From Selenomonadales bacterium (GTDB lineage Bacteria; Bacillota; Negativicutes; Sporomusales; UBA7701), in NCBI GenBank assembly GCA_029975165.1, contig JARKPR010000088.1, forward strand, positions 1 to 64,000: a DNA stretch of 64,000 nt, given 5' to 3'. The translations under genes and the position numbers were made by a program. The notes below the pieces were generated by a model, which worked only from the letters and a program-made list of their open reading frames with translations, made no database searches and had not been told where the DNA came from. Below, piece after piece: positions 142-49,808 of the stretch. Every line of letters begins with the position of its first letter. Within the stretch, counting starts at the first letter, position 1.

Positions 142-220
142 GAGTCACGAAACCTATCGTGTCCAGGACTATGCGGGATACGCGCTTTCAAAAAATGAAA
201 CGATGTAGGTAAATCACACA
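142..220 (+). mobile_element. Right-end fragment of an IS481-family element
   Basis: These 79 bases match 40562-40644 with only scattered differences. They cover the last codons of an IS481-type transposase (a tail reading ETYRVQDYA) and the terminal inverted repeat ending AAATCACACA. The reverse complement of that end, TGTGTGATTTACCTACATCG, resembles the left end of another copy at 42614. Everything upstream of 142 differs from the other copy, so this is a truncated remnant. The stop codon of the neighbouring methyltransferase gene lies inside this terminus. Confidence 0.7.
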
Positions 221-32881: not shown

Positions 32882-33854
32882 GTTTTTCTCCTATATTCCA
32901 AAAGTTGTCTATATTATCTCCAATCTTATAAATTATTCTACAGCGGTCCTTCATCTCCTGCCCCCCGGAAGCAGGCAATACTAGGCAGGAAAGAAAAAGG
33001 CTGCTTGCTGGATTTGCCCCAGTCAAGTAGACAATTTAAAAAGCGAAACATTTATACGGCCATCTATTCCCGATAGTGGACAGCGAAAGGGACCGAGCCC
33101 TTTTTCAAACCGTATTGCAGAAGAAACGTATGCATCAATTTACTCACCATAGATTGTCTGAAGCTTACTACAACAAGTGTACAACATCTCTGCCTTGAGA
33201 TCGAGAGGACCGATCCGATAGGGGCGTTGAGAAAGTTCCGTTCTGCGAAGGAGTGCCTACCATGCCCATTGTTTCAATCGCTTGTTGTGCGAGCCAGAAA
33301 TTTACTGGAATCCTTGATTTAAGTGATTCAGCGTCCGGTACCCTCTTTTATATATATTCCAATAATATACATGACTGAATTTTAAGTCCACTTCACGGAG
33401 TGACGAGGAATGCAATGATTTCATTATTGTATTGGTCCTTGATGGGTAGATAACAAGAGAAAGCGCTAGCCCTCGCACAGATAAGCAATGAATATGACCC
33501 ATTCCTGATTAAGGGACTACAGCCTTGAAATTTCGCGCAATCGCTTCGTATGAACTGCCAACGCATCCCCCTGAAACCACCTCTTCTACGAATAGTTTAC
33601 CTGATACCCAAGCTCTTTCATAGCAAGTTGCCACGCTCATATAGTAAATTGTCTTCATGGCTTATAAATCAACTCATCACACTCTTTGGCAGAGATTAGT
33701 CCTTTACATAGCATCATCTACACTCCTTTTTAAAATATTTCATTATTTATTGTGAAATTATGGCGTTTTATTAGCTCGATGAAGCAGATGAGCCTTCCTA
33801 TAACGGTAGACTAATAATAGAGTATGTTTTAATTTTAACAAGGAGGAGCTTACA
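32882..33854. other. 973-nt intergenic region: promoter area and decayed DNA
   Basis: The first 120 nt must hold the promoter of the minus-strand core operon, but I see no confident -35/-10 pair. Beyond about 33000 the DNA becomes AT-rich. A chain of very short minus-strand ORFs (20 aa at 33655-33717, 49 aa at 33509-33658 overlapping it by ATGA, then 66 aa at 33302-33502) has no recognised motif, although the first has a good AGGAG. ATTTCA and TGAAAT form an inverted repeat near 33740-33762, upstream of the plus-strand gene at 33855. I support no gene here. Confidence 0.4.
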
Positions 33855-34595
33855 ATGCGCAAAAAAGATTATGGCAATTCACAGGTATTATCACCGTTGA
33901 TTGACAAGGTTGAAGATGTAATCATTGCTATGGGAGAAACCGGCGAAGGTGAGGTTAATCGAATTAAGTCATTAATAAAAATGAGAGGCCATGAAACGAA
34001 AAACTTTTATAATACTATCCACATAATGGAGGAGGATGGATTAATCAAAAAGGTATCGAGCGACTTCCGTTATAAGCTTGGTGGGCCGTGTAGCATTTTT
34101 GTCTTAACAAAACTTGGTCGCGAAATTTATCGTCATGTAGCGCTTAAACGGAATGGTGTTGAACGAGTTCCCCAGGAATCTTTGTATTTCAGGACTAAAA
34201 ATCCCGAACGTGCTGCACTAGTTAGATACATAAAAGAATCATTGGAGGCAAAAGGATTTGAAGACGTATACGAAGCTACCCAAGGCAAATTTGATCTAAT
34301 CGTAAAAAAGAGCGAAAAAACTACTGCCGTAAAAATTGAGTATAGGAAGACTTTCGAGGCGGTTCGAAATGATGTGCGCAAACTACTGGATACCCAAGAA
34401 CGGCTAATTTACATATGTAAAAATTCTGCGATCGCTGGTTTAGTTACTTATAACGTTAACGCTATACTGCATGAAAAATATGGCGCAGAATACACTGTTG
34501 GCAAATATTATAAGCAAACAGGAAGAGCAATAGTTGTAATGACTTTAAAAGCAATGCAGACGCGCAACCAAAAGTCGATAAGTACTCTCTTTTAA
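33855..34595 (+). CDS. Orphan winged-helix protein with possible PD-(D/E)XK-like nuclease domain
   Basis: The 246-aa protein is not recognised as a named family. Residues about 20-100 look like a winged helix (VNRIKSLIKMRG, HIMEEDGLIKKVS, FVLTKLGREIYRH). Residues about 115-235 resemble a restriction-endonuclease-like fold: a helix, then GKFDLIVKK, AVKIEYRKTFEAVRND and RLIYICKN, where Asp and Glu-x-Arg/Lys could be active-site residues (inference). Replication-relaxation proteins of mobile elements have a similar two-part layout and are an alternative. AAGGAGG lies 8 nt before the ATG. The stop falls within the target duplication of the next IS element, which left the gene intact. Confidence 0.6.
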   Translation: MRKKDYGNSQVLSPLIDKVEDVIIAMGETGEGEVNRIKSLIKMRGHETKNFYNTIHIMEEDGLIKKVSSDFRYKLGGPCSIFVLTKLGREIYRHVALKRNGVERVPQESLYFRTKNPERAALVRYIKESLEAKGFEDVYEATQGKFDLIVKKSEKTTAVKIEYRKTFEAVRNDVRKLLDTQERLIYICKNSAIAGLVTYNVNAILHEKYGAEYTVGKYYKQTGRAIVVMTLKAMQTRNQKSISTLF

Positions 34596-34596
34596 T
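34589..34596 (+). repeat. Target-site duplication, left copy
   Basis: CTTTTAAT directly precedes the left inverted repeat of the IS256-family element and is repeated exactly at 35940-35947 after the right end. Eight base pairs is the expected duplication length for IS256-type transposition. The perfect match indicates a recent insertion. Confidence 0.92.
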
Positions 34597-35939
34597 GGTA
34601 GTGCAGAAAAAATTGTGTAAACCTCCATTGTCAGGTAAGATAAAAATGGCAATGGAGGTTTTGTTATGGCAGGGAAAGAAAAAAGCAAGCTACGGCAAAT
34701 GATCGAGGAATATGGAATCAAGGACATGAATGATGTCCACGAATTTGTGAAAATGCTGACCGCCGAAACGATACAGGCAGCGCTTGACGCGGAGCTTGAC
34801 AGCGAGCTTGGCTATTCGAAATACGACTACAGAAACAAGCAGACGGACAACAGCCGAAACGGGTATTCCCAGAAGACCGTGCAAAGCAGCGTCGGAGAAA
34901 TGGAGATCAAGGTTCCGCGCGACCGTCAGGGCGAATATGCGCCGCAACTTGTCAAAAAGCACCAGAGCGACGTTTCCTCCATAGAGGATAAAATCATCTT
35001 TTTATACTCTCAGGGCATCTCTACCCGCGACATCCAAAAAACAATGCAGGAGATGTACGGCATCGACGTGGACGACAGCCGTGTTTCCAAGATAACGGAT
35101 AAAATTCTGCCGCTTATCAAGGAATGGCAGGAACGGCCGCTTCAGAGCGTCTACGCCATGATGATTCTGGACGCCGTGCATTACAACGTCCGGGACAACG
35201 GGATCGTCAGCAAAAAGGCAGCTTACGTTGCTATCGGCACCGACCTGGACGGCAAAAAGGATGTACTGGGCATCTGGCTTGGCGCGAGCGAATCCTCAAA
35301 ATACTGGCTTTCCGTACTGAACGGCTTGAAGAGCCGCGGCGTGCAGGATATACTGATCGCGTCTGTCGACGGACTGTCCGGATTTGTCGAGGCCATAAAC
35401 GTGGCCTATCCCAAAACGGAAGTTCAGCGCTGCATCATCCATCAGATTCGCTCCTCTACGCGGTATGTCTCCTACAAGGACGTCAAACAGTTCACGGCGG
35501 ATTTGAAGCCGGTGTACAAGGCTTCGACCGAGGAGACCGCCCTTTCGGCCCTGGACGAATTTGAGGCCAAATGGGCTGGGAAATACCCGCTGGCCGTAAA
35601 GTCCTGGCGGGTTAACTGGAACGAGCTTTCCACGATGTTCAAATACTCGCCGGAAATTCGCAAGCTTATTTACACAACGAACGCCATCGAAAATTTTAAC
35701 CGGCAGCTCCGAAAGGTTACCAAGACAAAGAGCGCCTTCGTTTCCGATGACGCTCTCATGAAAATCCTGTACTTGACTACTATGAATATCGTGGATAAGT
35801 GGACAATGCCTATTAAAGATTGGGGTTCTATCCTGGATAATCTCATGATTTTCTTCGACGACAGAGTAAAGATTACTCTGTAATTCGCTCTCGAACTTAT
35901 CTTGACATTGGGGCTTTACACAAAATTTTACGCGCTACC
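34597..35939 (+). mobile_element. Intact IS256-family insertion sequence
   Basis: The 1343-bp element has terminal inverted repeats starting GGTAGTGCAGAAAAAATTGT on the left and, on the complementary strand at the right end, GGTAGCGCGTAAAATTTTGT. Both continue with similar sequence through a GTAAG/ATAAG block at about 43 nt. It carries one full transposase gene and is flanked by perfect CTTTTAAT duplications. It lies 1 nt after the stop of the orphan winged-helix gene. Its codon usage is more GC-rich than the AT-rich island around it, consistent with recent arrival. Confidence 0.95.
34666..35883 (+). CDS. IS256-family (mutator type) transposase
   Basis: The 405-aa DDE transposase appears complete. 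Catalytic residues fit Asp169 (MMILDAVHYNV), Asp235 (IASVDGLSGF) and Glu342 (YTTNAIENFNRQLRK), with the conserved CIIHQIR segment between the second Asp and the Glu. Length matches IS256 transposases (about 390-410 aa). It starts at ATG 34666 after a GGAGG sequence. With intact inverted repeats and target duplications, the element is probably still mobile and could mobilise related defective ends. Confidence 0.96.
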   Translation: MAGKEKSKLRQMIEEYGIKDMNDVHEFVKMLTAETIQAALDAELDSELGYSKYDYRNKQTDNSRNGYSQKTVQSSVGEMEIKVPRDRQGEYAPQLVKKHQSDVSSIEDKIIFLYSQGISTRDIQKTMQEMYGIDVDDSRVSKITDKILPLIKEWQERPLQSVYAMMILDAVHYNVRDNGIVSKKAAYVAIGTDLDGKKDVLGIWLGASESSKYWLSVLNGLKSRGVQDILIASVDGLSGFVEAINVAYPKTEVQRCIIHQIRSSTRYVSYKDVKQFTADLKPVYKASTEETALSALDEFEAKWAGKYPLAVKSWRVNWNELSTMFKYSPEIRKLIYTTNAIENFNRQLRKVTKTKSAFVSDDALMKILYLTTMNIVDKWTMPIKDWGSILDNLMIFFDDRVKITL

Positions 35940-35947
35940 CTTTTAAT
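35940..35947 (+). repeat. Target-site duplication, right copy
   Basis: CTTTTAAT follows the right inverted repeat and equals 34589-34596. Joining the two flanks restores an uninterrupted sequence running from the winged-helix gene into the IS481-type pseudogene region. Confidence 0.92.
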
Positions 35948-35965
35948 TGGATCGATAAAAAATGT

Positions 35966-37024
35966 TCAGCTAGCCTTCATATCTAACACGGTGGCAATAT
36001 AAGAGTCGATGGTTGCCACCGGGCGCTTGCCCATGTTTCGATAGCCTAAATACGGCCTTGCGGTGTTGTAGTGAACCAACCAGACATCCATATCTTCCCG
36101 CATAACCTCAACCGACTCATAGAACTTCTCCCGGAACACGCCCCGGAAAAACTCATCCAGCGCTGTCCGGTTGAACCGTTCGACGAACCCGTTGGTTTGG
36201 GGATTGCACACTTTTGTCCGCCTGTGCTCGATGTCGTTGAGGATGAGGTAAAGCTCGTACGGGTGGGTATCGCGGTCGCAAAACTCGCGGCCGTTGTCCG
36301 TTAATACAGCACCCACGGCCAGTTTCTTTTCTTGGTAGAACGGTAATGCTTCGTTATGGAGTACAGCCACGGCGCATTCGGGAGCCTTACTGGTGTGTAG
36401 AAAGCCGAAAGCGTAAGAGCCGTAGGTATTTACTACCGCATGCATATATACTCTGCCGACGCCTTTGAGCGTGCCCACGTAGAAAGTATCTTGAGCCAAA
36501 AGCTCGCCAGGGCGGCAGACTCGACGTGGCGCTCCCGAAAACAAGGATTAGCTTTCTCAATTTGACGAACCTGCTCCGGTGTCAACTCTAAGCCTTCGTT
36601 CAGATTCTTTTCTTCTAGCCGCAGCAGCCGTTGGTATTTGGAGCCGAAACTATGCCTGATCAGTATCTTTTGAATGACGGGGGGAACTGACAGATATCCC
36701 TTCAAGCTTGAGTAGGGCTGAAAGTTTTACACAGCCGTACCCGGGGTGTTTAAGGCTTCTGGCGATAATTTTTTCTTCGACTTCCGGCGGGGTTGTCTGC
36801 GGGTGGGTGTGATGGATCGGCGGTAGGTCTTTTAGCCCCTCAACGCCATGCGTTTGAAAGCGCCGCTTCCATGCGTAGAAGCTGGTTCGGTCCATTCCGC
36901 TCCGGCGGCAGGCTTCCGACACATTGCCAAGCATCTCGGCTAGTTGCAACACCGATATCCTTTGCCTGGCTACCTTAAGCATAGGGTCCTTGGTTGTGGT
37001 TTTCTCTTTTTCCATTCTTTTCAT
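35966..37024 (-). pseudogene. Frameshifted IS481-type transposase
   Basis: Three reading frames together give one IS481-type integrase of about 350 aa. The N-terminal HTH (QRISVLQLAEMLGNVSEACR, SFYAWKRRFQTHG) lies in 36650-37024, the middle in 36433-36705, and the catalytic core (LAQDTFYVG, LTDNGREFCD, NGFVERFNR) in 35966-36544. The first shift coincides with a run of six C (minus strand) near 36681, where five would keep the frame. The second is near 36510-36530. D, D and E are all still readable. Inactivation by two small indels suggests fairly recent loss. Confidence 0.85.
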
Positions 37025-37026
37025 CT

Positions 37027-37055
37027 CCTGTCTGGTATCATTATTGCCAGACAGG
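37027..37055. repeat. Inverted repeat next to the IS481-type pseudogene
   Basis: CCTGTCTGG and CCAGACAGG form a perfect 9-bp inverted repeat around an 11-nt spacer, starting 2 nt upstream of the transposase start. It may be the terminal region of that element, a binding site for its transposase, or an operator. I could not find a matching copy at the other end of the gene. Confidence 0.5.
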
Positions 37056-37495
37056 AAAACTAGTTATACAGATAAAATTTAAAATGCAAGAATTATTAAA
37101 TAATACCAGTACTTGCAAAAAATACGAGAACACGGTATTATATAAATATAAATATAAATGTTTATTAAACCAAGTACATAAAAAGCTGTGATACAACGGG
37201 ATATTGGGGGGCTATATATTTCGAAAAACATTCACGATTATCATATAAACTGGGCCGTTTGTCGATGCGGAAATGTCAGGGTATTTAGGCTTTTCAGAAA
37301 TTGATATTGGGGGTATATTAAAGAAAAGTTAAAAGAATAAAAATATACGAAATAGCGAATTTTCTTACGCGGGAAGTAGCAGAAAACGAGATAAAGTGAT
37401 TCTCCCTAATTCACATTTGAAATAGCCCAGTAGTTTAATGTTCATGAAGGAGATGGAATGTTTAGATAGAAAATTTGAAGGAGATGATTGTTATT
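37056..37495. other. AT-rich intergenic stretch with TATAAA-like repeats
   Basis: No gene is supported. The segment near 37140-37170 holds a short tandem pattern of ATAAAT units followed by GTTTATTAAAC, and similar text (GTAAACATAAATATAAAC) occurs at 38058-38076 just before the ribbon-helix-helix gene. This may reflect operator or iteron-like sites of a former plasmid, or simply AT-rich simple sequence. Confidence 0.3.
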
Positions 37496-37975
37496 ATGCT
37501 CAAAAAACTATTTGAAAAATTGGGATTATTGTATCCCGAACCTGATCCTACGATTGCTATATTGATCGATGCCGAAAATATTAGCCCACGAATTGCCGAA
37601 TTTGCTTTGGAACAAGCGAACCAGATGGGGTTAGTGAGAATTGTACGCGCATACGGGGACTGGACTGATATAAACCCGCCGGGCTACATCAAATTAGCTG
37701 ACAAATTTGGCGTTCAGAGATGCCAGGTTGATAAGAGGCGATCAAAAAAGAATTCGGTTGATATTGCCCTAACGGCAGATGCCGCTTTTCTTGCAGGCCG
37801 AGGGTTAGTCGATACATTTATAATTGTCACCGGTGACCAAGATTATCTCCCACTTATTCATTCCCTTAAAGCAGCAGGATGTTTGGTAATAGGTGTTGGG
37901 GGAGAGCAGGCAGCGCTTGATTTACGGCCGGCATGTAACCGTTTTCTTGTAGCAAAGTTTCCTGTTGTAGCCTAA
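37496..37975 (+). CDS. NYN-domain (LabA/DUF88, PIN-like) protein
   Basis: The protein of about 159 aa is a single NYN domain, a PIN-like RNase fold. It shows ILIDAENISPRIAEFAL with the first catalytic acid, RAYGDWTD, the middle KNSVDIALTADAAFL and the late TGDQDYLPLIHSLKAAGC. These give the four Asp positions expected for metal binding. Family members cleave RNA or act in surface and regulatory processes, but no target is apparent here. The start is ATG 37496, 12 nt after AAGGAG. The frame could also begin at TTG 37475. It is followed by a small ribbon-helix-helix gene. Confidence 0.8.
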   Translation: MLKKLFEKLGLLYPEPDPTIAILIDAENISPRIAEFALEQANQMGLVRIVRAYGDWTDINPPGYIKLADKFGVQRCQVDKRRSKKNSVDIALTADAAFLAGRGLVDTFIIVTGDQDYLPLIHSLKAAGCLVIGVGGEQAALDLRPACNRFLVAKFPVVA

Positions 37976-38093
37976 ATGACCAAGTATAAGTTGATATGGG
38001 AGGCTGGAAATTACCAGCCTCTTTAAATTTGCCACGCAAAAAACCATAATATATAATGTAAACATAAATATAAACAGTGAGGGTTATATTATT

Positions 38094-38288
38094 ATGGCTA
38101 AAAAAATTAAGTTTGTAGATTCACACGTGTTAAAAAGTTTTTATATCCGGACGGAATTATGGAAGGATTTCGACACGCTAGCCAATGAACAAGGGCATGG
38201 GGCAAAGACAGAACTCATAAACAAGGCGATTGAACTTTTATTGGAAAAGTATAAAAATGACGCTGCTAAGACAGAAAGTTCGTTTTAA
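38094..38288 (+). CDS. Small ribbon-helix-helix (CopG-like) DNA-binding protein
   Basis: The 64-aa basic protein has the strand-helix-helix layout of MetJ/Arc/CopG folds: a short strand around KSFYIRTELW, then helix KDFDTLANEQG and helix KTELINKAIELLLEKY. Such proteins repress plasmid copy-number or toxin-antitoxin operons. It lies 118 nt after the NYN gene on the same strand and just behind AT-rich repeats that could be its operator (inference). The toxin-antitoxin option is not supported by gene order, since antitoxins usually precede and overlap toxins. Confidence 0.65.
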   Translation: MAKKIKFVDSHVLKSFYIRTELWKDFDTLANEQGHGAKTELINKAIELLLEKYKNDAAKTESSF

Positions 38289-38464
38289 ATCAGTTAATAT
38301 TTACTTTCTCTAAATGGTTTCAAAAATTTTACTGCTCGTCAGGTAACATTTTGAAAGCTGGCCAAAACATCTTCACAATTTTTTTAAAACTTACTAAATT
38401 ATGGGTATCTCGCAGCCGACTCTTCTTAAGTGGTGCGGCGCTATCAAGAACACGACTTGGAGTA

Positions 38465-39799
38465 GTGTCAATAATTTTTCGCACATTCGAATAGGCGCCC
38501 GGTGAGCGGCCAAGGAGTAAAGTTAGCCAATATCCATCAAAACATCTTTTTCTTTCTCAAACAGCCGTTGCATATTATAAGATATCTTTTCTCGCCCCAG
38601 GCCGTTGTAGTGACATACCGCAGCCTGGCACAAACCAGCATGAGAGCGGAGTTGCCGTCGGGGAATGCTCCAACCACCCGGGTGCGCCGCCGAATTTCGC
38701 GCATGATCCGCTCAATGCCGTTATTCGTTCGTATCCGCAGCCAATGTTCTTGCGGAAAGTTCATATAACACAGGGTCTCCGCTATGCCGGCCTCCACCTT
38801 CTTAGCAGCTTCGCCGAGCCTAAGCTCTCTTAGGCGGGCGCAGACTTGTTGAGCCTTGTCCATGGCACTTTCATGGTTTTCTTGAGCGTGAATTGCCTTG
38901 AGCATTGCGGCCACTACTTTCATTTTGCTCTGGGTACAGTGGAAAACATATTGCGGTAGAAGTGGACTATGCATCCTTGATAGTGCGCTCCAGGATAGAC
39001 CTGGTTGATGGCATCGACGAGACCGAGGCATTTATCGCCGACAAACAGGCGAGTGCCTTTAAGCCCACGGTCTTTAAGACTGCAAAGGAATTCTTTCCAG
39101 CTTTCCGAGTCTTCTTTCATTCCCTCAGCAGCACCGATAATTTCTCTATAGCCATCGTTGTTTACCGCTATGGCAACAAGGACGGATACGTTTTCGAAAT
39201 CACCGCCCCAGTTTCGTTTGAGATAGATACCGTCCAGATAGACATAGGGATATTCGGTCTTGAGCGGGCGGTTGCGCCAGTTCTCAATATGGACATATAC
39301 TTTTTTGTTAACTCGCTGATCGTTCCCGGAGATACCTTGGTTCCCCACAAGGCTTCAGTTACATCTTCCACCCGGCGTACCGATACACCGGCCAGATACA
39401 TCTTGATGAGAGCTTCCTCAACAGATGCTTCCCGGCGCTTGTAGCGTTCGATGATCGACGTTTCAAAGGTCAGTTTGCGGAGTTTGGGAACGTTGAGGCT
39501 GACTTCACCGGCTTTGGTCATGAGTTTCGGGTGTAGTGGCCGGCACGGGTGTCCATGCGCTCGCTACTTCTTTCGTAGCGGCAGACATTGGTGATCTTGT
39601 TCGCTTCGGCATCCAGCAGCTTGTTCAGGGTATCTTCCACCGTTTCGCGTACTAGCTCACCTAATTGGTTCTTCAATTCAGGTTCGTTCAAGTGCTCATA
39701 AGGGCTTCTCCTTGTGTGATGGGGGTTGGTTTCTAGTCAATTCCTATCCTAGCACACTCAGAGGGTGCCCTTATTCATTTGTGCGAAATTTATTGTACG
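38465..39799 (-). pseudogene. IS256-like transposase relic nested in the IS481-type element
   Basis: Minus-strand fragments in several frames give an IS256-type transposase: an N-terminal part (LNEPELKNQLGELVRETVED, about 39530-39690), then LNVPKLRKLTFETSIIERYK, then VYLDGIYLKRNWGG and LFVGDKCLGLVDAINQVYPG, and finally RIRTNNGIERIMREIRRRTR. At least three frameshifts separate them. The ends share an inverted repeat containing TTTCGCAC (38477-38484 and, complemented, 39782-39789) extended by similar flanking bases. The relic is clearly different from the intact IS256 copy at 34597. Confidence 0.82.
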
Positions 39800-40644
39800 T
39801 TATCTAGCTTCGCGGGGCTTAAGAGTCAAAGTCGGCGGCCACCACCGGCCAGTCATAAAGGATTAGAGTTACACCGGCTGGATCTTGAGCTGTGCATAAC
39901 TCGAAGGCTAGGCGCTCACCGCATTGCCAGTGAACGAAGGCGACTTATGATTTTTCATTAAGCTTGGCTACAGTTCAGAAGATGATGGTCCAACAGCAGT
40001 GCTCCGTCTTACCCCGGAGAAATCGACAAAGAAAAGGACGGCACCGCTACAACCAGCCAATCCTGGAAACCGGGTCCAGTTCGATGTAATGAAGGTAGGG
40101 CCGCGTCTATATCAGCATAAAGTGATCGATGATTGCACAAGATACCGGATTCTGGCATTGTACCCACGGCGTACGGCCACCAACTCAGTGGGCTTTCTCA
40201 AAAAGGTGCAAGACGAGATTCCGTTTCCCATATAGCAAATTCAGACCGATCGGGGCGTAGAGTTCTTTGCTTATGCCTTCCCGGAAAAGCTTATGGAATA
40301 CCATATCAGGTTCCCGGCCTATCCTCCCCGGCCCGCTGCATTTGAACGGCAAGGTAGAACGGAGCCAACGCACGGACTTGGATGAGTTCTGACGCAACAG
40401 TGGACCTAAGTGACCCAGAATTACCGGCAAGGCTAGAAGCTGGCAAGATTATAACAACTGCTCCCGTCCCCATGGTCCACTGGGAAATCGAACATCAGGC
40501 AGGTTCGCTCGATAAGGCCACAATTAGTCCGTTATCTGAGGAAGTCTTTGATACCTACGATGAGTCACGCGAAACTTATCGTGTTCAGGACTATGCATAA
40601 GATATGCGCTTTCAAAAATTGAAACGATGTAGGTAAATCACACA
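39800..40644 (+). pseudogene. IS481-type transposase relic, C-terminal part
   Basis: Broken plus-strand frames encode the integrase core of an IS481-type transposase: KSQSRRPPPAS, then PGNRVQFDVMKVGPRLYQ with the first Asp, DDCTRYRILALYPRRTA, IQTDRGVEFFAYAF with the second Asp, and a HLNGKVERSQRT segment with the Glu in another frame. The tail is EEVFDTYDESRETYRVQDYA. Several stops and frameshifts interrupt it. The last 83 bases are repeated at the left edge of the window. Confidence 0.82.
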
Positions 40645-40861
40645 GCTAAATAGTCATAATGCCCTTGTTTTTACGCCACCTGCATTTTTCCCATTCCGCA
40701 GAGCTTCGAGACTTAGCCAATATAATACGAAATATGCAATCCATTCTACCCGGACTAGGTGTTTTGTTTTTATTGTCGGTATGTGGTAATATAATATTAA
40801 ATATATTCGCCTACGGCGAAAGAGTGATGAGTATGGAACGAGACGATAAGTTTTTATGCTG
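40645..40861. other. AT-rich gap before the replication-like unit
   Basis: No gene is supported. Possible short frames on both strands (85 aa on plus, 114 aa on minus) lack ribosome binding sites and recognisable motifs. A small TCGCCTACGGCGA palindrome lies near 40809-40821. Confidence 0.3.
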
Positions 40862-40927
40862 TTGTCTTGTTTTTTTGTTGAAAAAAACGAGACAAGTATG
40901 TCTCCGGTTTCACTGATGTATTGAAAC
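40862..40927. repeat. Two inverted repeats upstream of the rep-like unit
   Basis: Bases 40862-40876 (TTGTCTTGTTTTTTT) pair with 40881-40895 (AAAAAAACGAGACAA), giving a 15-bp stem with one G-T wobble around a GTTG loop. A second repeat, GTTTCA at 40907 and TGAAAC at 40922, follows. They lie about 40-100 nt before the coupled small ORF and replication-like gene, where plasmids often keep copy-control hairpins or origin elements (inference). On the plus strand no T-run follows the first stem, so it is not a standard terminator in that direction. Confidence 0.6.
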
Positions 40928-40964
40928 AAGATGTGGTATTTTTTCGATTTTAGGGGGTCTTGCA

Positions 40965-41096
40965 ATGAAAAGTAAAAAAGATGACCAAATTCCTGCATGG
41001 AAACATTTTGCGGTCAACCCGGCTAGGGTCCATGCTCGCACTACTGATCTGTGGGCGTGGGTAGACCGGCTCGACGGAAAACGTGGATCGATATGA
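40965..41096 (+). CDS. Small ORF (43 aa) coupled to the replication-like gene
   Basis: An ATG at 40965, 8 nt after GGGGG, opens 43 codons ending in TGA at 41094-41096. That stop overlaps the ATG of the next gene at 41093 (ATGA). The peptide is Lys-rich at the start (MKSKKDDQIPAWKHF) and Trp/Arg-rich at the end (TTDLWAWVDRLDGKRGS). I do not recognise it. Coupling to the rep-like gene suggests a leader peptide or small accessory protein controlling its translation. Confidence 0.5.
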   Translation: MKSKKDDQIPAWKHFAVNPARVHARTTDLWAWVDRLDGKRGSI

Positions 41097-42268
41097 ATAA
41101 ATCCGGTTATGTCGGCTATATTTCCTTTGAGAGACCGAGTTATTATTCTTCTACAATTGCTAAAATTTTCGGCCTAACCGCCGCCATTTATTTACAAGAA
41201 CTGGCTTTCTTGCTAAATCCGGACCACAACAAAAATAAACACGATGGTAAATACTGGGTGTATAACACATACGAGCAATGGGCCAATCGCCTAGGTCGGT
41301 CACCGAAGACTATACAGAGGACGGTCGCCGGTCTTGTGAAACGCAGAATTATAATTGTTGCCAAAAATCCGCGATTGGCTTGGGATCGGAAAAATTGGTA
41401 CACAATCAATTACTATGAACTTGACCAGCAGATTGCAGCCTTTCAAGAGTCCCAGGGGGACGCTAAGCCCAGGAATATTTCATCTGACTTTTTTAACCAT
41501 ATGGAACAGGTCAATCAGCCCCAATGCAATAGGTCAAAAAGTCCAGACCCGTCTAGACATTTTGACCCATGCAATAACAACAATATAGCCAATAAACATA
41601 CTACCACAACTACTTCGGCTTGCACCGCGCAGCAGGGTGGGATTAGTGTCGGTAGTAGGGGAGGCACCGTGGAGAACGAGATCAACGCCGTGCTCCAGTT
41701 CTCTGCTGAGGATAGTGTTGATTGCTCGCTCATTGCGTCTGCAACACTCGGTCAGGTTGGCAATGCTGAGGTCAATGTTGAGGCAGTCATAGATATGGTC
41801 TGTAGGTGTGGTTTGACGCAGACCGCAGCTACAAATCTGGTTAGAGAATTCGGGGTCGACCCGTGTCGCCAAGCTGCGTTAGATATGGATAAAAATTTAA
41901 AAAACGGAATAAAAATAGAGCATTCGACTCACAACTATTTTCGGGCAATTGCGAGAACAAAACTGCTGGAGAGTCAGTCTGAGATGTCCGACGACGTTCG
42001 TACCACTCGGCGTGAGAGAATTGCCGTCAGGACACGAAAAAAAAGCCTGGAAACTTTGCGATGGGAATCCCTTAGTACTGACAGTGGGGAGGCGGCCCAA
42101 GCCCTGGCACACTTAAGGCGAATCGCGGACGGAGACGAGGTTGGTTGGAGTGACGACGATCGTGCAGTGGCGGCCGCTGCACTTGACTGCCCTACATTGC
42201 AAGAGCGGCAGGCCATCACTCGGCGGTACTTGGGGCCTCTAAAGCAAAAATTATTAAATCGTCCTTAG
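41093..42268 (+). CDS. Replication-initiator-like winged-helix protein (plasmid or phage type)
   Basis: The protein of about 391 aa has an N-terminal winged helix (about 20-110) with the HTH YEQWANRLGRSPKTIQRTVA, as in phage and plasmid replication proteins that read whether a gene acts at an origin. A Ser/Asn/Thr-rich linker (about 140-190) follows. The C-terminal half is helical and charged, with RRERIAVRTRKKSLETLRW. I cannot name a family with confidence. DnaD-like or phage O-like replication proteins are the best guess. I use ATG 41093, which overlaps the small ORF stop, rather than an earlier in-frame start at 41051. Confidence 0.6.
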   Translation: MNKSGYVGYISFERPSYYSSTIAKIFGLTAAIYLQELAFLLNPDHNKNKHDGKYWVYNTYEQWANRLGRSPKTIQRTVAGLVKRRIIIVAKNPRLAWDRKNWYTINYYELDQQIAAFQESQGDAKPRNISSDFFNHMEQVNQPQCNRSKSPDPSRHFDPCNNNNIANKHTTTTTSACTAQQGGISVGSRGGTVENEINAVLQFSAEDSVDCSLIASATLGQVGNAEVNVEAVIDMVCRCGLTQTAATNLVREFGVDPCRQAALDMDKNLKNGIKIEHSTHNYFRAIARTKLLESQSEMSDDVRTTRRERIAVRTRKKSLETLRWESLSTDSGEAAQALAHLRRIADGDEVGWSDDDRAVAAAALDCPTLQERQAITRRYLGPLKQKLLNRP

Positions 42269-42613
42269 CATTCGCCCTCTTTGTAGAGCTACTTGGTGTT
42301 TTATTTTGGCGCTCACATCAGCGCTACCTGCTGAAGATTTAACGCGCTTTGCTGAGTCAGTCATCAGCACTGCCTTTCCATAATATAATGATGACGGTCA
42401 TTCTTACCGCTTAGTCAGTCTCTAGCGCCCCTCGTTCGTATTATAGTGGTGAATCGCTATGGCCTCCGTAGTCCCGGCCACGGCGCTAATCTGCGTGGTA
42501 TCTCAACGGACAATGAAACTGATTGCAGTTGCCAGGTAGCCAACACTCTAGTTCATGCGGGCCAAATCAACCAGATGGAGAGATGCCCTAGTTGTAGGGG
42601 CAATGATATTTTA
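42269..42613. other. Gap after the rep-like gene, nothing recognised
   Basis: No gene is supported in these 345 nt. A plus-strand frame at 42446 reads CPSCRGNDILCVIHRHRF near its end, hinting at the zinc-ribbon start of a transposase, but it is short, has no ribosome binding site and runs into the IS481 terminal repeat. Confidence 0.3.
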
Positions 42614-43050
42614 TGTGTGATTCATAGACATCGTTTCAACACCTGAGGTGGTATAATTTAGACATGAACAGGGAAATGCTGAACGTTGGAAGTAGATTCA
42701 GCTCTATTTGAAAACTCATTGAAAACTAAAACGCGGGAATTATATGCTTACGTTGCGATATCTCACGGCCGACTCTTCGTAAATGGTGTCGTCGCTATCA
42801 AGAACACGGCTTGGGGGCCTAAGAGTCAAGCCGGCGGCCACATCGATCAGTACGTAAAGTGCTCGAATTGCAAAATGGCTGGATTCTAGAGCTGCACAAG
42901 ACCAGAAGGCTGGTTAATCACTGTATTGTTAATGAACTGAGGCGGCTATATGATTTTTCATTGAGCCTAGTTACAATTCAGAATTCTACCCCGCAGAAAT
43001 CGGCAAAGAAAAGGCAACGCCGCTACAAACCGCCTATTCCCGGAGACCGG
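42614..43050 (+). mobile_element. 5'-part of an IS481-family element, truncated
   Basis: The left terminal repeat TGTGTGATTCATAGACATCG begins at 42614 and mirrors the right ends at 220 and 40644. It is followed by a transposase start at 42664 (MNREML) and a readable but interrupted frame: ISRPTLRKWCRRYQEHGLG, then SSRRPHRSVRKVLEL, ELRRLYDFSL and KKRQRRYKPPIPGDR. Stops occur near 42700 and 42822. The sequence ends abruptly near 43050, where a GC-rich segment unrelated to the element starts. Confidence 0.78.
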
Positions 43051-43267
43051 ATCCACCCCCAGACGCTGGTCGGCTCCGCCGGGTGTATCGCAGCGACGGC
43101 CAGGCTAGGTCTGGAATAGGGCGCGGCAAAGGGATAGTGCAAGCGCTCGGCCACGTACTTAAGACGTACGCTTGCAAACGCGCGGAGCAAGGTCTTAGCA
43201 CTCCTGCGCTTAACACTAAGACTGCCCCTTGCGTGTGCAACGCATTGTGACTATTATAAACGGCCGA
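43051..43267. repeat. GC-rich spacer with two adjacent inverted repeats
   Basis: GCAAGCG (43139) pairs with CGCTTGC (43169-43175). GCAAGGTCTTAG (43187) pairs with CTAAGA and, after a short bulge, CCTTGC (43227-43232). The two stem-loops lie between the truncated IS481 copy and the stop codon of the exported protein gene. There is no T-run, so they are not typical terminators. They may be the end of another mobile element or a structured transcript. Confidence 0.5.
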
Positions 43268-44182
43268 CTATTGGGTTTTTATCCCGTATACTTCCGCATC
43301 CGCCTTCGTCTGGATATAAAGCTCCGTTCCGGCCGGGATGGTGATGTCCTGCCCTTGCACGAAGGCGCCGCCGACAACGCCGATCGGCCCGAGGATGACG
43401 AGGCCGGCGACCGTTGCCCCGGCAGCCTTGGCCATCGATTTGGTCTCTTCCTTGGCCTTTTCGCCCAGCAGTGTTTCGATGCTTGTTCCGTCTATGGCGG
43501 CGATGTTGTCGAACGAGATTTCCAGCTTGGCGTCGCGGCCGAAATTCCTTGCCGGCTCGACTTTGGTCACTTTGCCCGCACCGGTCGCCCCTTTGCCGAT
43601 AACCAGCAGCCCGCCGGCGTACACGTCTTCGGCCGCCTGGAAGGCTACCGCGTCACCTGTCCTGCTGTTCTTGGTATCGAGCTGGGTCATGATCTTTATC
43701 TTCACCAGGCTGTCCTTGGGGACGCTGGCGCCGGTGACTTCGAGCTGGCCGCCGGGGAAGGCCAGCTTGACCAGCTTGGTCAGCCGCCCGTCGAACGAGC
43801 CTTGGGAGGGGCTGCCGAACATCACCTTTTCCAGATTCTCAAGCCGCGTTTTAGCCGGCTGTGCGGTCGTGTCGCGGGTCAACATCCATTCCACGGCGCT
43901 AAGTTTGATGGTGAAAGACGCCGCCGCCGCCGAGTTTTCCCTTATGTAACCGTACACGCGGTCCAGCTTGGTGACCAGGGCATCCTTGCTCTCCTGGCCG
44001 TACATGTCATTTTCTATTTTGCTTACCCGCTCGACGAGCGATCCGGTCTGTTCGGTCCCGTAGAGAATCTTTTCCACCGCCGCCGTCTTGTCCAGCATGG
44101 TCAGCTCGGCGCCGCCCTGGGCGCCGACCAGGCCGGTGGCGGCGAAGATCGCGATCATGGTACAAATCAATATCTTGCGCAT
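43268..44182 (-). CDS. Exported protein with N-terminal LExxxYG repeats and C-terminal beta domain
   Basis: The 304-aa protein has a signal peptide (about 1-21). It then has three or four copies of a roughly 25-residue pattern built on VEKILYGTEQTGSLVERV, with IENDMYG and LEKVMFGSPSQGSFDGRL as further copies. The C-terminal half (about 155-300) contains SRTGDAVAFQAAEDV, VIGKGATGAGKVT, LEISFDNIAAIDG and ITIPAGTELYI, the pattern of a beta-rich domain found in many exported bacterial proteins. A hydrophobic Gly-rich helix lies near 250-275. The function is unknown. AAGGAGG precedes the ATG. Confidence 0.7.
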   Translation of the reverse strand: MRKILICTMIAIFAATGLVGAQGGAELTMLDKTAAVEKILYGTEQTGSLVERVSKIENDMYGQESKDALVTKLDRVYGYIRENSAAAASFTIKLSAVEWMLTRDTTAQPAKTRLENLEKVMFGSPSQGSFDGRLTKLVKLAFPGGQLEVTGASVPKDSLVKIKIMTQLDTKNSRTGDAVAFQAAEDVYAGGLLVIGKGATGAGKVTKVEPARNFGRDAKLEISFDNIAAIDGTSIETLLGEKAKEETKSMAKAAGATVAGLVILGPIGVVGGAFVQGQDITIPAGTELYIQTKADAEVYGIKTQ

Positions 44183-44224
44183 CGGTCTGCCTCCTTGTCG
44201 TTGCTGGTACTATATTTCGTGGCG

Positions 44225-44260
44225 AAAAAGGAAATATCCTGCCGCACTACGGCAGGATAT
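44225..44260 (-). terminator. Rho-independent terminator
   Basis: On the minus strand an 11-bp perfect stem (ATATCCTGCCG and CGGCAGGATAT) with a 5-nt loop is followed by TTCCTTTTTC. It lies 8 nt after the stop of the 142-aa exported protein gene and ends that transcript before the LExxxYG-repeat gene. Confidence 0.88.
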
Positions 44261-44267
44261 TGATTTT

Positions 44268-44696
44268 CTATATCCGCACGTCGATCATCGCCGACACGCC
44301 CACCCCCTGCACCCGCGAGAAGTTCACCGGGTTTTTGCTGTTGATGGGGATGAGGGCCTTGACCCGGAATGAGCTGTTGAAGTCGGCTTCGACCTGGAGG
44401 GCGGCCTGGGTCGCGTCGACAAGGTGCTGCGGCCCGGTAATCTGGGCGGCGCCGACGTAGCCGCCGCTGCCCAAGGTGATTATGGGCACGACCTTGGTGG
44501 CATAGTCGCTGTTGGCGTTGTGCTTGGCGGTCAAGGTGTTGATGAAGTTATTGAGCGGGCCGGCAAACCTGTCCACAAGGACGGCTATGCCGCCCACCTT
44601 GAGAATGTCGCCGAGGCCGACGGCTTGGGTGGCGGGAATGGCGGCGGCGGACAGCAGGCAGAAGGCCAACAAGCCTATAATAATACGTTTTTTCAT
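44268..44696 (-). CDS. Small exported protein of unknown function
   Basis: The 142-aa protein has a clear signal peptide (MKKRIIIGLLAFCLLSAAA, cleavage near residue 25 after TQA). The mature part starts with VGLGDILKVGGIAVLVDRFA, which is amphipathic, and later has IITLGSGGYVGAAQITGP and a C-terminal RVQGVGVSAMIDVRI. It has no cysteines after the signal and no lipobox. I use ATG 44696 (12 nt after GGGAGG). A GTG at 44705 is too close to that site. A periplasmic or outer-membrane-associated place is likely. Confidence 0.65.
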   Translation of the reverse strand: MKKRIIIGLLAFCLLSAAAIPATQAVGLGDILKVGGIAVLVDRFAGPLNNFINTLTAKHNANSDYATKVVPIITLGSGGYVGAAQITGPQHLVDATQAALQVEADFNSSFRVKALIPINSKNPVNFSRVQGVGVSAMIDVRI

Positions 44697-44762
44697 TTTT
44701 GTCACACACCTCCCTTGTTTTGTTATATATTATTCGCCGCCCTTGACCGGGTCTCCTGCCCG

Positions 44763-44798
44763 AAAAAGGAAAACACCCGGGAAAATCCCGGGTGTTTT
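44763..44798 (-). terminator. Rho-independent terminator after the porin pseudogene
   Basis: AAAACACCCGGG and its complement form a 12-bp stem with a 5-nt loop, followed on the minus strand by CCTTTTTC. It is nearly identical to the terminator after the intact porin copy at 46241, as expected from a tandem duplication. Confidence 0.88.
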
Positions 44799-44812
44799 CG
44801 CCGCCTGTTTGC

Positions 44813-45921
44813 TTAGAACAGAACGTTGGTGACTACGCGGAAGTGCTTGAAGTCGTTTATACCGCTGCCGTCGTCAGGGCTGATATCGGCGTATTCAAGG
44901 GTGGCGTTGAAGTTCTTACTGAACGCGTAGTTGTACGCGAAGAACATGCCTTTCTAGTCAACAGCGTTGACAAGCTTCCCGCCCGGGGTGGTCTGGAGGC
45001 CGGCGAAGTCGTTCCAGTCGGCGTTGGCTTTTACGTTGATGTACTGGGCGTAGAAGTTCTGGGCGCCGGCTTTGTTGAGGACGAAGTCGCCGAAGGTCAG
45101 TTTGGCGGCCCAGGCGTTCGTGCCGGCGTCGCTATCGATCTTCTCGGCGCCGTTGTGGAGGTATTCGGCCTGCAGGGTCCACTTGGTGTCGAAGGTGTAC
45201 TTGGTGTCAACCAGGGTCCACTTGAAGGCCGACTCGTCGTATACCGGGTTCTTGAAGTCGTAGTAGCCGAGGCTCCAGCCGAACTTGCCGAGCTTGCTGC
45301 TGATGGCCAGCGACTGCACGTCGAGGTCGCTCAGACGGGTGGAGTAAGCGGCGTTTTTGTCGATCGCGGCGCCTTTGAATTCCTGCCAGGTGTCGTTGCC
45401 CAGCTTGGCCTTGTCGGGCTCGCGGGTGACGAAGCGCATCGCGAACGAGGTATTGTCGTCGACCTTGGCAACGCCGTCGCAGGCGGTACTGAGCCTTGAC
45501 GTTGCTGGGAGCGTTCTCGAAATCCTAAGAGGTGTAGCGGATGGCCAGTACGCCGTTGAACTTAAGGTTCGGCTGGTTGGCTTCGAGTTTCGCCACGCGG
45601 ACGCCGAGGTGGTTGAGCTCGGCGGCGAATTCGACGGCCAGTTTGTCGATGAGGGCCTTGGTCTCAGCGTCGGCCTTGCCGGACCTGGCCATCGCCTTGG
45701 CAACGACCTGAGCCATTTCGTAACGGGTCATGGCGCGGTCGCCGCAGAAGGTGACGTCGCCATAGCCGTCAACTATGCCGGCCTGGGCGAGCTTGGCGAC
45801 CGCCGCATAGGCCCAGTGCTTCGCGGGAACGCAACGAACGGGTTGGCCGGAGCGGCCAGGCCGTGCCGGCGATGCCGAGCACGAAAACGAGCGCCAGAAG
45901 GGTAACGAAAGTCTTTTTCTC
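44813..45921 (-). pseudogene. Degenerate SLH-porin (OmpM-like), duplicate of the downstream intact gene
   Basis: Aligned with the intact copy at 46291-47640, this locus has lost its GTG start (now GAG at 45919-45921), has two single-base deletions in the signal peptide/SLH region, and has a stop after LAIRYTS. A block of about 65 codons is missing between NDTWQ and KGAAID, and a TAG follows LVNAVD near the 3' end. The remaining text is clearly homologous (MTRYEMAQVVAKAMA, FKWTLVDTKYTFDTKWTLQ, HFRVVTNVLF). Leader, hairpin and terminator are preserved. Confidence 0.9.
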
Positions 45922-45966
45922 TTGTTTTCCTTCTTAGGTTTTTTCGTATTGACGGGCCCTAAGGAA

Positions 45967-46001
45967 GGAAACTTGAGTTTCCGTGTTACCTCAATATTTC
46001 C
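45967..46001 (-). promoter_or_regulatory. Conserved leader hairpin, copy A
   Basis: In the leader of the porin pseudogene the minus strand reads TTGAG, then a 12-nt loop GTAACACGGAAA, then CTCAA, with an outer GGAAA/TTTCC stem. The same structure occurs before the intact porin genes at 47687 and 49774. It lies about 46 nt upstream of the lost start codon. Confidence 0.6.
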
Positions 46002-46240
46002 TTTTCAGAGAGCCCATATCCAAACGCCTACTCCGAAAGCCGCTCCCGGGAACCTAAGGTGCACCTCCTTCTCCCCCGTCGGCTCTCTTCGGCGCGCGGA
46101 CCCCCGTATGCACCCATAGTATTTGTAACATTTTACTTATGCACTAAATTCTATTCTTTCAATATTTTGCCTTTTATACATTTAATTTTATGTATATTAA
46201 TTTTTACCTGAAAGTGGCAAAAAATTTCTTCTCTATGGGG

Positions 46241-46276
46241 AAAAAAGAAAACACCCGGGATAATCCCGGGTGTTTT
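46241..46276 (-). terminator. Rho-independent terminator after the intact tandem porin
   Basis: On the minus strand AAAACACCCGGG ATTAT CCCGGGTGTTTT forms a 12-bp stem, followed by CTTTTTT. It lies 15 nt after the stop of the 449-aa porin gene. The stretch between it and the pseudogene leader is AT-rich and must hold the promoter of the upstream copy. Confidence 0.92.
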
Positions 46277-46290
46277 CGCTGGCTGTTCGT

Positions 46291-47640
46291 TTAGAACAGG
46301 ACGTTGGTGACGACGCGGATGTGTTTTTTCTCGTTGGCTTTGTCAGCGGCATCGGTCGGATCCACTTGGGCGTAAATCAACGAGGCGTTAAAGCTCTTGC
46401 TGAACGCGTAGTTGTACTGGAGCAGGTACATTTTCCAGTCAACGCATTGCGACTCCTTCCCGCCAATGGAGGTATCCAGGCCGGAGAAGCCAAACCAAGT
46501 CGCATTGCCCTTGGCGTTGACGTACTGGAACTGGAGGTTCTGGGCGGCGGTCTTGTTGAGGACGAAGTCGCCGAAGGTCAGCTTTGCGGCGTAGGCGTTC
46601 GTGCCCAGGTTGCCCCAGATCTTCTCAGCGCCGTTGTGCAGGTACAGAGCCTGCAGGGTCCACTTGGTGTCGAAGGTGTACTTGGTGTCGAACAGGGTCC
46701 ACTTGAAGGCGGCGGTGTCGACTACGGGGTTGTTCATGTTGGTGTAGCTGACAGCCCAGGCGAACTTGCCGAGCTTGCTGTCGATGGCGGCGGACGTAAC
46801 GTCGAGGTCGCTCAGGCGGGTGCTGCCGGCGACGTTGCTGTCGATGGCGGCGCCTTTGTAGAAGCGGCCATACTGGACGGTGAAGCCGAGGTCGCCGAAC
46901 TTGGTGTTCAGCTTGACGCCGTCAAAGCTGAAGGCGCCGGAGTCCATAATCATATTCTGCTGGTCGACATACATCGACTGGCGGCCAAGGGTCATGTTGA
47001 GGTCGCCGAGCTTGGTGGTCAGGTTGATGCGGTCAATGTTGTTCTGGTTGCCGTAGGTGCCTTTAGCGCCACTCTGGCCGCTTTCACCGAAAGTCTGCCA
47101 GGTGTCGTTGCCCAGGTGAGCTTTGTCCGGCTCGCGGTTCACGAAACGGAAGTTGAAAGAGGTCTTATCGTCGACCTTCGCGGTGCCGTCCAGGCGCAGG
47201 CGGTACTGGGCGGAAACGCTGCTGGGGCCGGAGGTGAAGTCGTCGGCGGTGTAACGAATCCAGGCAGCGCCTTTGAACTGGATGTTCGGCTGGTTGGCTT
47301 CGAGTTTCGCTACGCGGACGCCGAGGTTGTTGAGTTCGGCGGCGAATTCGACGGCCAGTTTGTCGATGAGGGCCTTCTGCTCAGCGTCGGCCTTATCGGA
47401 CTTGGCCATCGCCTTGGCAACGACCTGGGCCATTTCGTAGCGGGTCATGGAGCGGTCGCCGCGGAAGCTGCCGTCGCCATAGCCGTCAACTATGCCGGCT
47501 TTAGCAAGCTGAGCCACTGCGCCGTAAGCCCAGTGTTTCGCGGGAACGTCGACGAACGGGTTGGCCGGAGCGGCCAGGGCCGTGCCGGCGATGCCGAGCA
47601 CGAAAACGAGCGCCAGAAGAGTAACGAGAGTTTTTTTCAC
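46291..47640 (-). CDS. SLH-domain outer membrane porin (OmpM-like)
   Basis: The 449-aa protein has a signal peptide (about 1-23), one S-layer homology domain (about 25-85: FVDVPAKHWAYGAVAQLAKA, YGDGSFRGDRSMTRYEMAQ), a short coiled coil (LIDKLAVEFAAELNNLGVRV) and a beta-barrel region ending in LF. This is the OmpM architecture of Negativicutes, where the SLH domain binds polyaminated peptidoglycan and ties the outer membrane to the wall. The start is GTG at 47640 with AAGGAGG 7 nt upstream. A degenerate duplicate lies directly downstream. Confidence 0.92.
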   Translation of the reverse strand: MKKTLVTLLALVFVLGIAGTALAAPANPFVDVPAKHWAYGAVAQLAKAGIVDGYGDGSFRGDRSMTRYEMAQVVAKAMAKSDKADAEQKALIDKLAVEFAAELNNLGVRVAKLEANQPNIQFKGAAWIRYTADDFTSGPSSVSAQYRLRLDGTAKVDDKTSFNFRFVNREPDKAHLGNDTWQTFGESGQSGAKGTYGNQNNIDRINLTTKLGDLNMTLGRQSMYVDQQNMIMDSGAFSFDGVKLNTKFGDLGFTVQYGRFYKGAAIDSNVAGSTRLSDLDVTSAAIDSKLGKFAWAVSYTNMNNPVVDTAAFKWTLFDTKYTFDTKWTLQALYLHNGAEKIWGNLGTNAYAAKLTFGDFVLNKTAAQNLQFQYVNAKGNATWFGFSGLDTSIGGKESQCVDWKMYLLQYNYAFSKSFNASLIYAQVDPTDAADKANEKKHIRVVTNVLF

Positions 47641-47686
47641 TTGTTTTCCTCCTTAGGTTTTTTTGTGATGACGAGCCCCCAAGGAA

Positions 47687-47723
47687 GGAAATGGTTGAGT
47701 GTCCATGTTTCCTCAATATTTCC
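47687..47723 (-). promoter_or_regulatory. Conserved leader hairpin, copy B
   Basis: The minus strand reads GGAAATA, TTGAG, loop GAAACATGGACA, CTCAA, CCATTTCC. Inner and outer stems pair. It lies about 47 nt before the GTG start of the intact porin. Compared with copy C at 49774 the loop is almost unchanged, while the closing T-A pair is A-T there, a compensatory change. Confidence 0.6.
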
Positions 47724-47943
47724 TTTTCAGAGAGCTCATATCCCACGCCTACTCCGAAAACCGCTCCCGGGAACCTAAGGTGCACCTCCTTTCTTCCCCG
47801 TCGGCTCTCTTCGGCGAGAGGACCGTTGTATGGGAGGTTGACCTCTAGTATAAGCCAGCCTCTGCCTAGCTATGCATGATATTCTATATCAAGGAAGATA
47901 TTCCTGCACGGTTGACGGAAAAAGGCGAGAAAAATTTTCGCTT

Positions 47944-48360
47944 TTATCTGTCAGCAGCCAGGAAATAGCGTTCGGCGATGATGACGGCGACATAATCGTC
48001 GACCGGTGTCGGCGGCACGCGCAACGTGACCGGCACGAGCCGGGCCAGGCCGCGCGGCGGATGATCGCGCCAATAGCGGGTCCGGGCCTCGTCGGTGGAG
48101 CGATGCTCGTCGACCAGCCGGACGGCAAGCTCCCGCCCACCCGGCCGGAGCGCGGCCAGTGCCGCCTGAGCGGCCTTGCGCCCGGTCCGGTCGCCGAGGA
48201 CAACCGTGCCGGCGGCATGCCGCGCAGCCAGTTCGGCGACGGCCGCCGCCATCTTATCGGCCGCGACCACGCTTTTGTACAGGACGCCGGCCTGCCGGCC
48301 GACCACCGCGACGCCGCATTTGTCGCGGCCGGGATCGACGGCGATGACAATTTCGTCCAT
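47944..48360 (-). CDS. RNase H-fold protein, YqgF/RuvX-like
   Basis: The 138-aa protein starts MDEIVIAVDPGRDKCGVAVV, where the Asp in VDPGRDKCG is the first metal ligand of the RNase H/RuvC-like fold. A second region, GTVVLGDRTGRKAAQAAL, and the late PTPVDDYVAVIIAERYF carry further acids. Size matches YqgF (about 138 aa), but the usual LP motif regions are changed, so it may be a paralogue rather than the pre-16S rRNA nuclease. AAGGAGG precedes the ATG. It lies between two porin genes, transcribed with the same polarity. Confidence 0.72.
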   Translation of the reverse strand: MDEIVIAVDPGRDKCGVAVVGRQAGVLYKSVVAADKMAAAVAELAARHAAGTVVLGDRTGRKAAQAALAALRPGGRELAVRLVDEHRSTDEARTRYWRDHPPRGLARLVPVTLRVPPTPVDDYVAVIIAERYFLAADR

Positions 48361-48462
48361 GGTACAACCTCCTTAGCCTGTATGTTATTTCTCGTTCAGC
48401 AAGTTTATTCCTGCTTCGGCGCGAGATGCATATTATGGGATTTATCAATGGCCGAGAATACG

Positions 48463-48496
48463 AAAAAGATCCCGCCGGGATTATCCCGGCGGGATC
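48463..48496 (-). terminator. Rho-independent terminator after the third porin
   Basis: On the minus strand GATCCCGCCGGGA TAA TCCCGGCGGGATC forms a 13-bp stem followed by TTTTTCG. It lies 23 nt downstream of the stop of the 393-aa porin gene and upstream of the YqgF-like gene, so these are separate transcripts. Confidence 0.93.
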
Positions 48497-48519
48497 TGGA
48501 CTAGTCAGGAGCGATTCGC

Positions 48520-49701: not shown

Positions 49702-49773
49702 GTCGGAATCCTCCTTGTGTAGGTATTTTGCGCGGGTGGCGAACCACCGGCCGGCCCGGCGGACACGCAAGGA

Positions 49774-49808
49774 GGGCTGCCATGAGTGACCGTGTTTCCT
49801 CATAACCC
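49774..49808 (-). promoter_or_regulatory. Conserved leader hairpin, copy C
   Basis: The minus strand reads GGGTT, ATGAG, loop GAAACACGGTCA, CTCAT, GGCAGCCC. The inner 5-bp stem and outer GGG/CCC pairs differ from copies A and B at paired positions while the loop is conserved. It lies 73 nt upstream of the porin start. A separate CTGCC/GGCAG hairpin lies further upstream near 49830-49850. Confidence 0.6.

Follow-up and report, generated by a model that had tools for sequence, protein, structure and literature searches.

In bacteriophage lambda, the O protein binds four repeats and starts replication, as described in the available part of one study (PMC3985674). According to the available part of another (PMC5499656), the origin of phage SPP1 lies within gene 38, and that of phage 80alpha is inferred to lie within ORF20, which together with the DnaC-like loader ORF21 suffices for plasmid replication; the same text treats lambda O and the G38P type as having no relationship. 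Here we analyzed a locus comparable to these systems in a 64,000-nucleotide window (the whole stretch of DNA under study). From sequence comparisons, and with a probability that we put at about 0.72, we propose that the unit at 40645-42613 is a replication-initiation module of the lambda O/G38P type, with a probable embedded origin, that has been stranded in the chromosome.

The larger gene of this unit, hereafter called rep, was delimited as follows.

41093..42268, plus strand: intact gene for a 391-aa initiator-like protein
41126..41437, plus strand: winged-helix initiator domain, aa 12-115 (hhalign against alignment A2; PHROGs)

An alternative, longer frame from a GTG at 41051 would code for 405 aa; the ATG at 41093 agrees with where the relatives begin in alignment A1. 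The initial annotation had described the protein as resembling plasmid or phage initiators, and the searches bear this out. The region of aa 12-115 aligned with A2 at an hhalign probability of 98.6% (E 5.2e-16); of the nine relatives that make up A2, eight come from genomes of the class and one from a named Selenomonas plasmid. PHROG matches (best E 1.8e-17), all within aa 13-181, were to DnaD-like loaders, replication initiation proteins and O-like initiators, and the five best were replication families. The concern raised at the outset that homologues might occur only as chromosomal regulators is contradicted, because winged-helix relatives occur in viral contigs as well as in records of phages and plasmids. 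By tblastn, 47 plasmid records and 73 phage records were matched, none over more than 80% of the protein; among the 20 of the 47 plasmid matches that were listed, coverage was at most 38% and fell within aa 5-159. Staphylococcal phage initiators were among the proteins that matched the winged helix.

Relatives were found in 30 of 300 genomes of the class at E <= 0.001 and in 11 of 398 genomes of a phylum sample at E <= 1e-8, the source genome being counted in both. Single-protein scans of the collections viral_contigs and genome_contigs for close relatives returned nothing, and scans with alignment A3 yielded 283 confirmed stretches in genome_contigs and 441 in viral_contigs (the latter at E <= 1e-3). 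No full-length relative of the 391-aa protein was found in these searches. Since the C-terminal part on its own gave only an hhalign E value of 0.025 (probability 1.9%) and a best blastp E value of 0.34, with no phmmer match, we claim no homology for it; some whole-protein matches extend into this part, to aa 279 for relative L016 and to aa 246 for L218. Sequence searches of the PDB gave two chance-level matches in one case (E 0.31 and 0.64) and none in the other. Single-sequence AlphaFold models had too low a confidence to be of use, with a pLDDT of 41.9 for the full length and of 53.0 for aa 1-126, and Foldseek with the latter model returned no PDB match at E <= 0.001.

Inspection of the nucleotide sequence of rep revealed a cluster of repeats followed by AT-rich DNA.

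41486..41570: four 15-bp iteron-like repeats, at 41486-41500 (minus), 41506-41520 (plus), 41529-41543 (plus) and 41556-41570 (minus)
41573..41612: AT-rich stretch (72.5% AT), a candidate unwinding element

Iterons had been suggested as something to look for nearby; iteron-like repeats are present, but inside the rep gene and not beside it. They occupy the linker-coding stretch after the winged helix, with starts 20, 23 and 27 bp apart, a span of 85 bp and mixed orientation (- + + -), and copy 2 is weak, matching at 11 of 15 positions. The adjoining stretch at 41573-41612 is tied second in AT content among separate 40-mers of the gene (that at 41138 is equal and that at 41880 richer). The unit contains no perfect match to the DnaA-box consensus, only six sites with one mismatch.

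The significance of the cluster was assessed by synonymous-codon shuffling, which controls for protein-level constraint. Its score of 12 was reached by 3 of 1000 shuffles, and by 1 of 100 in a rerun. As the repeat length of 15 bp was one picked after the repeats had been seen, the figure is best read with those for six settings of word length and span: the same cluster won each time (reduced to three copies at 18 bp), and its score was reached by 24, 9, 3, 0, 2 and 48 shuffles per 1000 (24 at 12 bp and 48 at 18 bp). Shuffles that reached the score and also placed the cluster within aa 115-190 numbered 0-3 per 1000 over the six settings. As a positive control, lambda O gave 0 of 100 shuffles and returned exactly its four annotated iterons, and none of 26 ordinary genes of the window, used as a negative control, reached 1/100 (lowest, 3/100).

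The same test was applied to relatives of rep. The 160 loci considered were the best 80 of the 283 from genome_contigs and the best 80 of the 441 from viral_contigs; removal of those shorter than 170 aa or more than 70% alike in their first 110 residues left 74 distinct relatives. Twenty-six of them scored at 1/100 or less and 48 did not pass. The median repeat copy fell within aa 100-230 in all 26 passing relatives, and the motif CAAAA, on either strand, was present in at least two copies in 19 of them. An earlier set, in which 33 of 40 genes were kept, the window gene included, after removal of those shorter than 120 aa or more than 80% alike, had given 12 of 32 distinct relatives at 1/100 or less; the two sets overlap, and their counts are not additive. 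Three passing members of the earlier set (L022, L027 and L039) are G+C-rich and may represent low-complexity matches.

Judged by these sequence features, the cluster at 41486-41570 is probably an embedded origin. It is also conceivable, if unlikely, that the gene is an initiator relic in which the repeats have either come together by chance or are what is left of an origin after decay, the real origin having been elsewhere in the lost element. Such a reading could draw on the chance probability of the cluster, 0-48 per 1000 depending on the setting, on the 48 of 74 relatives without a significant cluster and on the mismatches of copy 2, but it leaves the linker position, the CAAAA core and the lambda-like spacing to coincide, and very few shuffles attained both score and position.

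The embedded-origin module, as we prefer to read the locus, lies within inserted DNA delimited by the features below.

33005..43270: IS-rich insertion island (congener junctions and border sequences)
38406-38460: further piece of the left IS
38920-39348, minus strand: decayed Mutator-family fragment that interrupts the left IS copy (Transposase_mut, E 1.2e-40)
39814..40644, plus strand: right part of a decayed IS of the integrase-core type (weak rve match, E 0.001)
40619-40644: inverted repeat of the left IS end, part of the decayed left IS
42614..43055, plus strand: left part of another IS copy, divergent but from the same family, beginning with the inverted repeat 42614-42639

The segment of ~10.2 kb (~33005-43270, borders approximate) that harbours the unit represents an insertion, because in all four congeneric genomes examined the site is empty: sequence corresponding to ~43269-43278 of the window is joined to that of ~33004-33019, with 22-38 bp between. 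The spot in the congeners consists, as judged by eye, of an inverted repeat followed by a T. The rep unit itself is flanked by two copies from one IS family, of which the first abuts it with its right end and the second with its left end. "Stranded", the word used in the initial annotation, is thus an apt description of a unit that is placed between decayed IS copies in an insertion absent from the four congeners.

The inverted repeats of the two IS copies are 85% complementary. The IS bodies show 68% and 88% identity in two aligned blocks, and the copies are therefore not a recent recombination pair. The left IS end was found at three other places in the genome. A transposon carrying rep and bounded by the repeats at 40619 and 42614 was considered and rejected: both are IS ends outside the unit, since the three other copies of the left IS stop at 40643-40652 (in window terms) and the IS bodies lie on the outer sides. 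Near the start of the window (142-227), beside an ordinary gene, there is a piece of the same IS end with 87% identity.

Among the other contents of the island are an intact gene for an IS256-family transposase (34666-35883; Pfam E 1.8e-108, NCBIfam E 1.4e-125), possibly still active, decayed IS pieces and, on the minus strand, a transposase fragment of the integrase-core (rve) type. The island also holds an NYN-domain gene (37475-37972) followed by an RHH gene (38094-38285), a pair that recurs in two congeners (G002:C2 and G003:C35) and could be toxin-antitoxin-like or partition-derived. The RHH protein has three plasmid relatives, each encoded downstream of a ParA gene. The RHH gene was considered as a plasmid partition remnant and found to have no firm bearing on rep, because it pairs with the NYN gene in the two congeners. 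Beyond the island, the region of 44800-49800 contains related genes in repetition, with 180-nt blocks of which two are 82% and 76% like the third, at distances of 1.7 and 2.1 kb; the N termini of their products are presumably of the S-layer-homology type.

Downstream of rep, we searched for a helicase or loader gene. The 345 bp that separate rep from the right IS (42269-42613) contain no ORF longer than 66 aa. The lack of a loader next to rep does not decide the matter, because only 12 of 65 relatives have an ORF with a Walker A motif in the 1.5 kb that follow them.

The DNA upstream of rep contains a hairpin and a small ORF, which the initial annotation had interpreted as a control hairpin and a leader peptide in a copy-number control system.

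40862..40895: 15-bp hairpin with a 4-nt loop (repeat search, RNA fold and shuffles)
40879..40904, minus strand: terminator-like site nested in the hairpin (a site on either strand arises in 6 of 200 shuffles)
40965..41096, plus strand: 43-aa ORF whose stop overlaps the rep start (ATGA)

The 15-bp inverted repeat is real, with arms at 40862-40876 and 40881-40895 that are 93% complementary. Its predicted RNA fold has an energy of -19.0 kcal/mol (z = -6.98), and a stem of equal length, with one mismatch allowed, appeared in none of 300 dinucleotide shuffles of 40645-40964. In the rest of the 64 kb, the same scan found stems of at least 14 at four positions; that at 5244, with 16, exceeds the one described here. 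A second repeat had been mentioned without coordinates. Candidates for it are the palindrome of 6 bp at 40806-40820 and the direct repeat of 17 nt at 40719/40788, but neither was shown to be above chance.

Terminator-like sites number 5 in 40300-42700, compared with 2.4 +/- 1.6 in shuffles, and the minus-strand site at 40879-40904 may possibly mark the end of a leftward RNA. A weak promoter-like match is located on the minus strand at 40976-40947; in that region, promoter-like sites are rarer than in shuffles (1 compared with 3.7). A short leftward RNA upstream of rep is possible and would be formally like lambda oop, the comparison being taken from the available part of PMC3985674. A search for DNA similar to the unit (40645-42613) found none in phages and only a 38-bp stretch in plasmids, and no relative of the hairpin DNA came to light; Rfam gave no matches in 33000-49000.

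The 43-aa ORF, with AGGGGG just 5′ of it, overlaps rep as first described, in that the TGA at its end runs into the start codon (ATG) of the 391-aa ORF. Coupling by such an overlap would in itself be ordinary, because 11 of the 74 relatives are likewise preceded by an ORF, no shorter than 30 aa, that overlaps them by 4 nt (ATGA type). The ORF had no match at E <= 1 in plasmids or phages, and none at E <= 10 by blastp among 65 ORFs located upstream of rep relatives. The possibility that the ORF is what remains of an excisionase-like helix-turn-helix gene gained no support: Pfam and NCBIfam gave no match, PHROGs a single one at E 0.23, and blastp none to the 65 upstream ORFs. The idea of a two-gene unit present on plasmids finds no support, as 47 plasmid records match rep, none over more than 80% of the protein, and the plasmid collection holds no match to the small ORF. 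Copy-number control by hairpin and leader peptide is likewise unsupported, the 43-aa ORF having no relatives in the plasmid, phage or upstream-ORF searches.

We consider it improbable that an integrated small plasmid has its entire backbone in the 2-kb unit between the IS copies, with hairpin and leader peptide attenuating rep for copy-number control. Two direct IS copies do flank the unit, the hairpin is strong and rep is preceded by a terminator-like site that faces leftward; against these stand the divergence of the IS copies, the lack of matching phage DNA and the mere 38 bp of matching plasmid DNA, the want of conservation support for leader or hairpin, and the scarcity of promoter-like sites. 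That the gene codes for a chromosomal transcription regulator with a winged helix is very improbable, for while weak, sub-cut-off Pfam helix-turn-helix matches and the location in a chromosome-like contig would fit a regulator, the five best PHROG matches are replication families, 441 relatives lie in viral contigs and the insertion site is empty in the four congeners.

We regard the rep unit as most likely a remnant of a mobile element, and not as a system of a new kind. The module would be of the phage/plasmid "replisome organizer" type, working like lambda O, SPP1 G38P and 80alpha ORF20. Its winged-helix domain would bind the four iterons in the linker-coding stretch of its own gene, the AT-rich DNA adjoining them would then be opened, and the remaining part of the protein would contact a partner that brings in the helicase. 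Translation of rep may occur by coupling to the 43-aa ORF via the ATGA overlap. The module presumably came with a mobile element, most of which is now gone; in the likely course of events, it was captured from a phage, a plasmid or an integrative element and then trimmed by IS activity in the island, which the four congeners lack. As it has no helicase-loader gene of its own, the module is probably now a silent relic or dependent on a host loader.

We give little credence to the more ambitious proposal that the 2-kb unit is a still-working minimal replicon whose initiator, of a new subfamily marked by a C-terminal part that has no known relatives, would load the host helicase without a loader of its own. 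Such a replicon would be controlled by a leftward RNA running from ~40940 to the nested terminator of the hairpin, formally like lambda oop, and could fire from the chromosome.

The reading as a stranded initiation module turns a vague "rep-like gene" into a concrete prediction, that of an 85-bp origin inside a coding sequence. Our survey also suggests that many winged-helix initiators, from phages, plasmids and bacterial genomes alike, share a CAAAA-centred linker repeat. Should this hold, such repeats would offer a simple way to find origins in unannotated phages and plasmids. A literature search of titles and abstract openings found no survey of linker repeats of this kind; phage replication modules are reportedly reviewed by Weigel and Seitz (2006).

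Among initiators from Negativicutes, those of the Selenomonas plasmid NZ_CP017043 and of contigs attributed to Pectinatus and Megasphaera share with the window protein a length of 348-420 aa and the winged helix, and differ from it in sequence, with 18-25% identity overall. Some have significant linker repeats as well, e.g., L016, L026 and L032, whereas the initiator of the Selenomonas plasmid did not pass the repeat test (24/100). L016 and its kin also differ in that they lie downstream of a gene of ~405 aa.

The likeness to the replisome organizers of Gram-positive phages comes from the DnaD-like PHROG families and the staphylococcal phage initiators that match the winged helix. SPP1 G38P and 80alpha ORF20 are initiators with an origin in the gene, inferred in the case of ORF20 (as given in the available part of PMC5499656), as is proposed here for the window protein, a likeness drawn from descriptions and PHROG families. 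In contrast to this type, the C-terminal part of the window protein is unrelated by sequence to anything tested; and while 80alpha needs the DnaC-like loader ORF21, none follows rep here.

At the protein level, the likeness to lambda O comes from matches to PHROG families named O-like. The repeats of lambda are annotated as 18 bp and all lie on one strand, unlike the 15-bp repeats in mixed orientation found here, and the P gene follows O, whereas rep has no loader gene after it. The arrangement of the two loci is otherwise similar, with four iterons in the middle of the initiator gene, AT-rich DNA after them and a CAAAA core, and the repeats of ori-lambda, whose starts are 20, 24 and 23 bp apart compared with 20, 23 and 27 in the window, cover an identical span of 85 bp.
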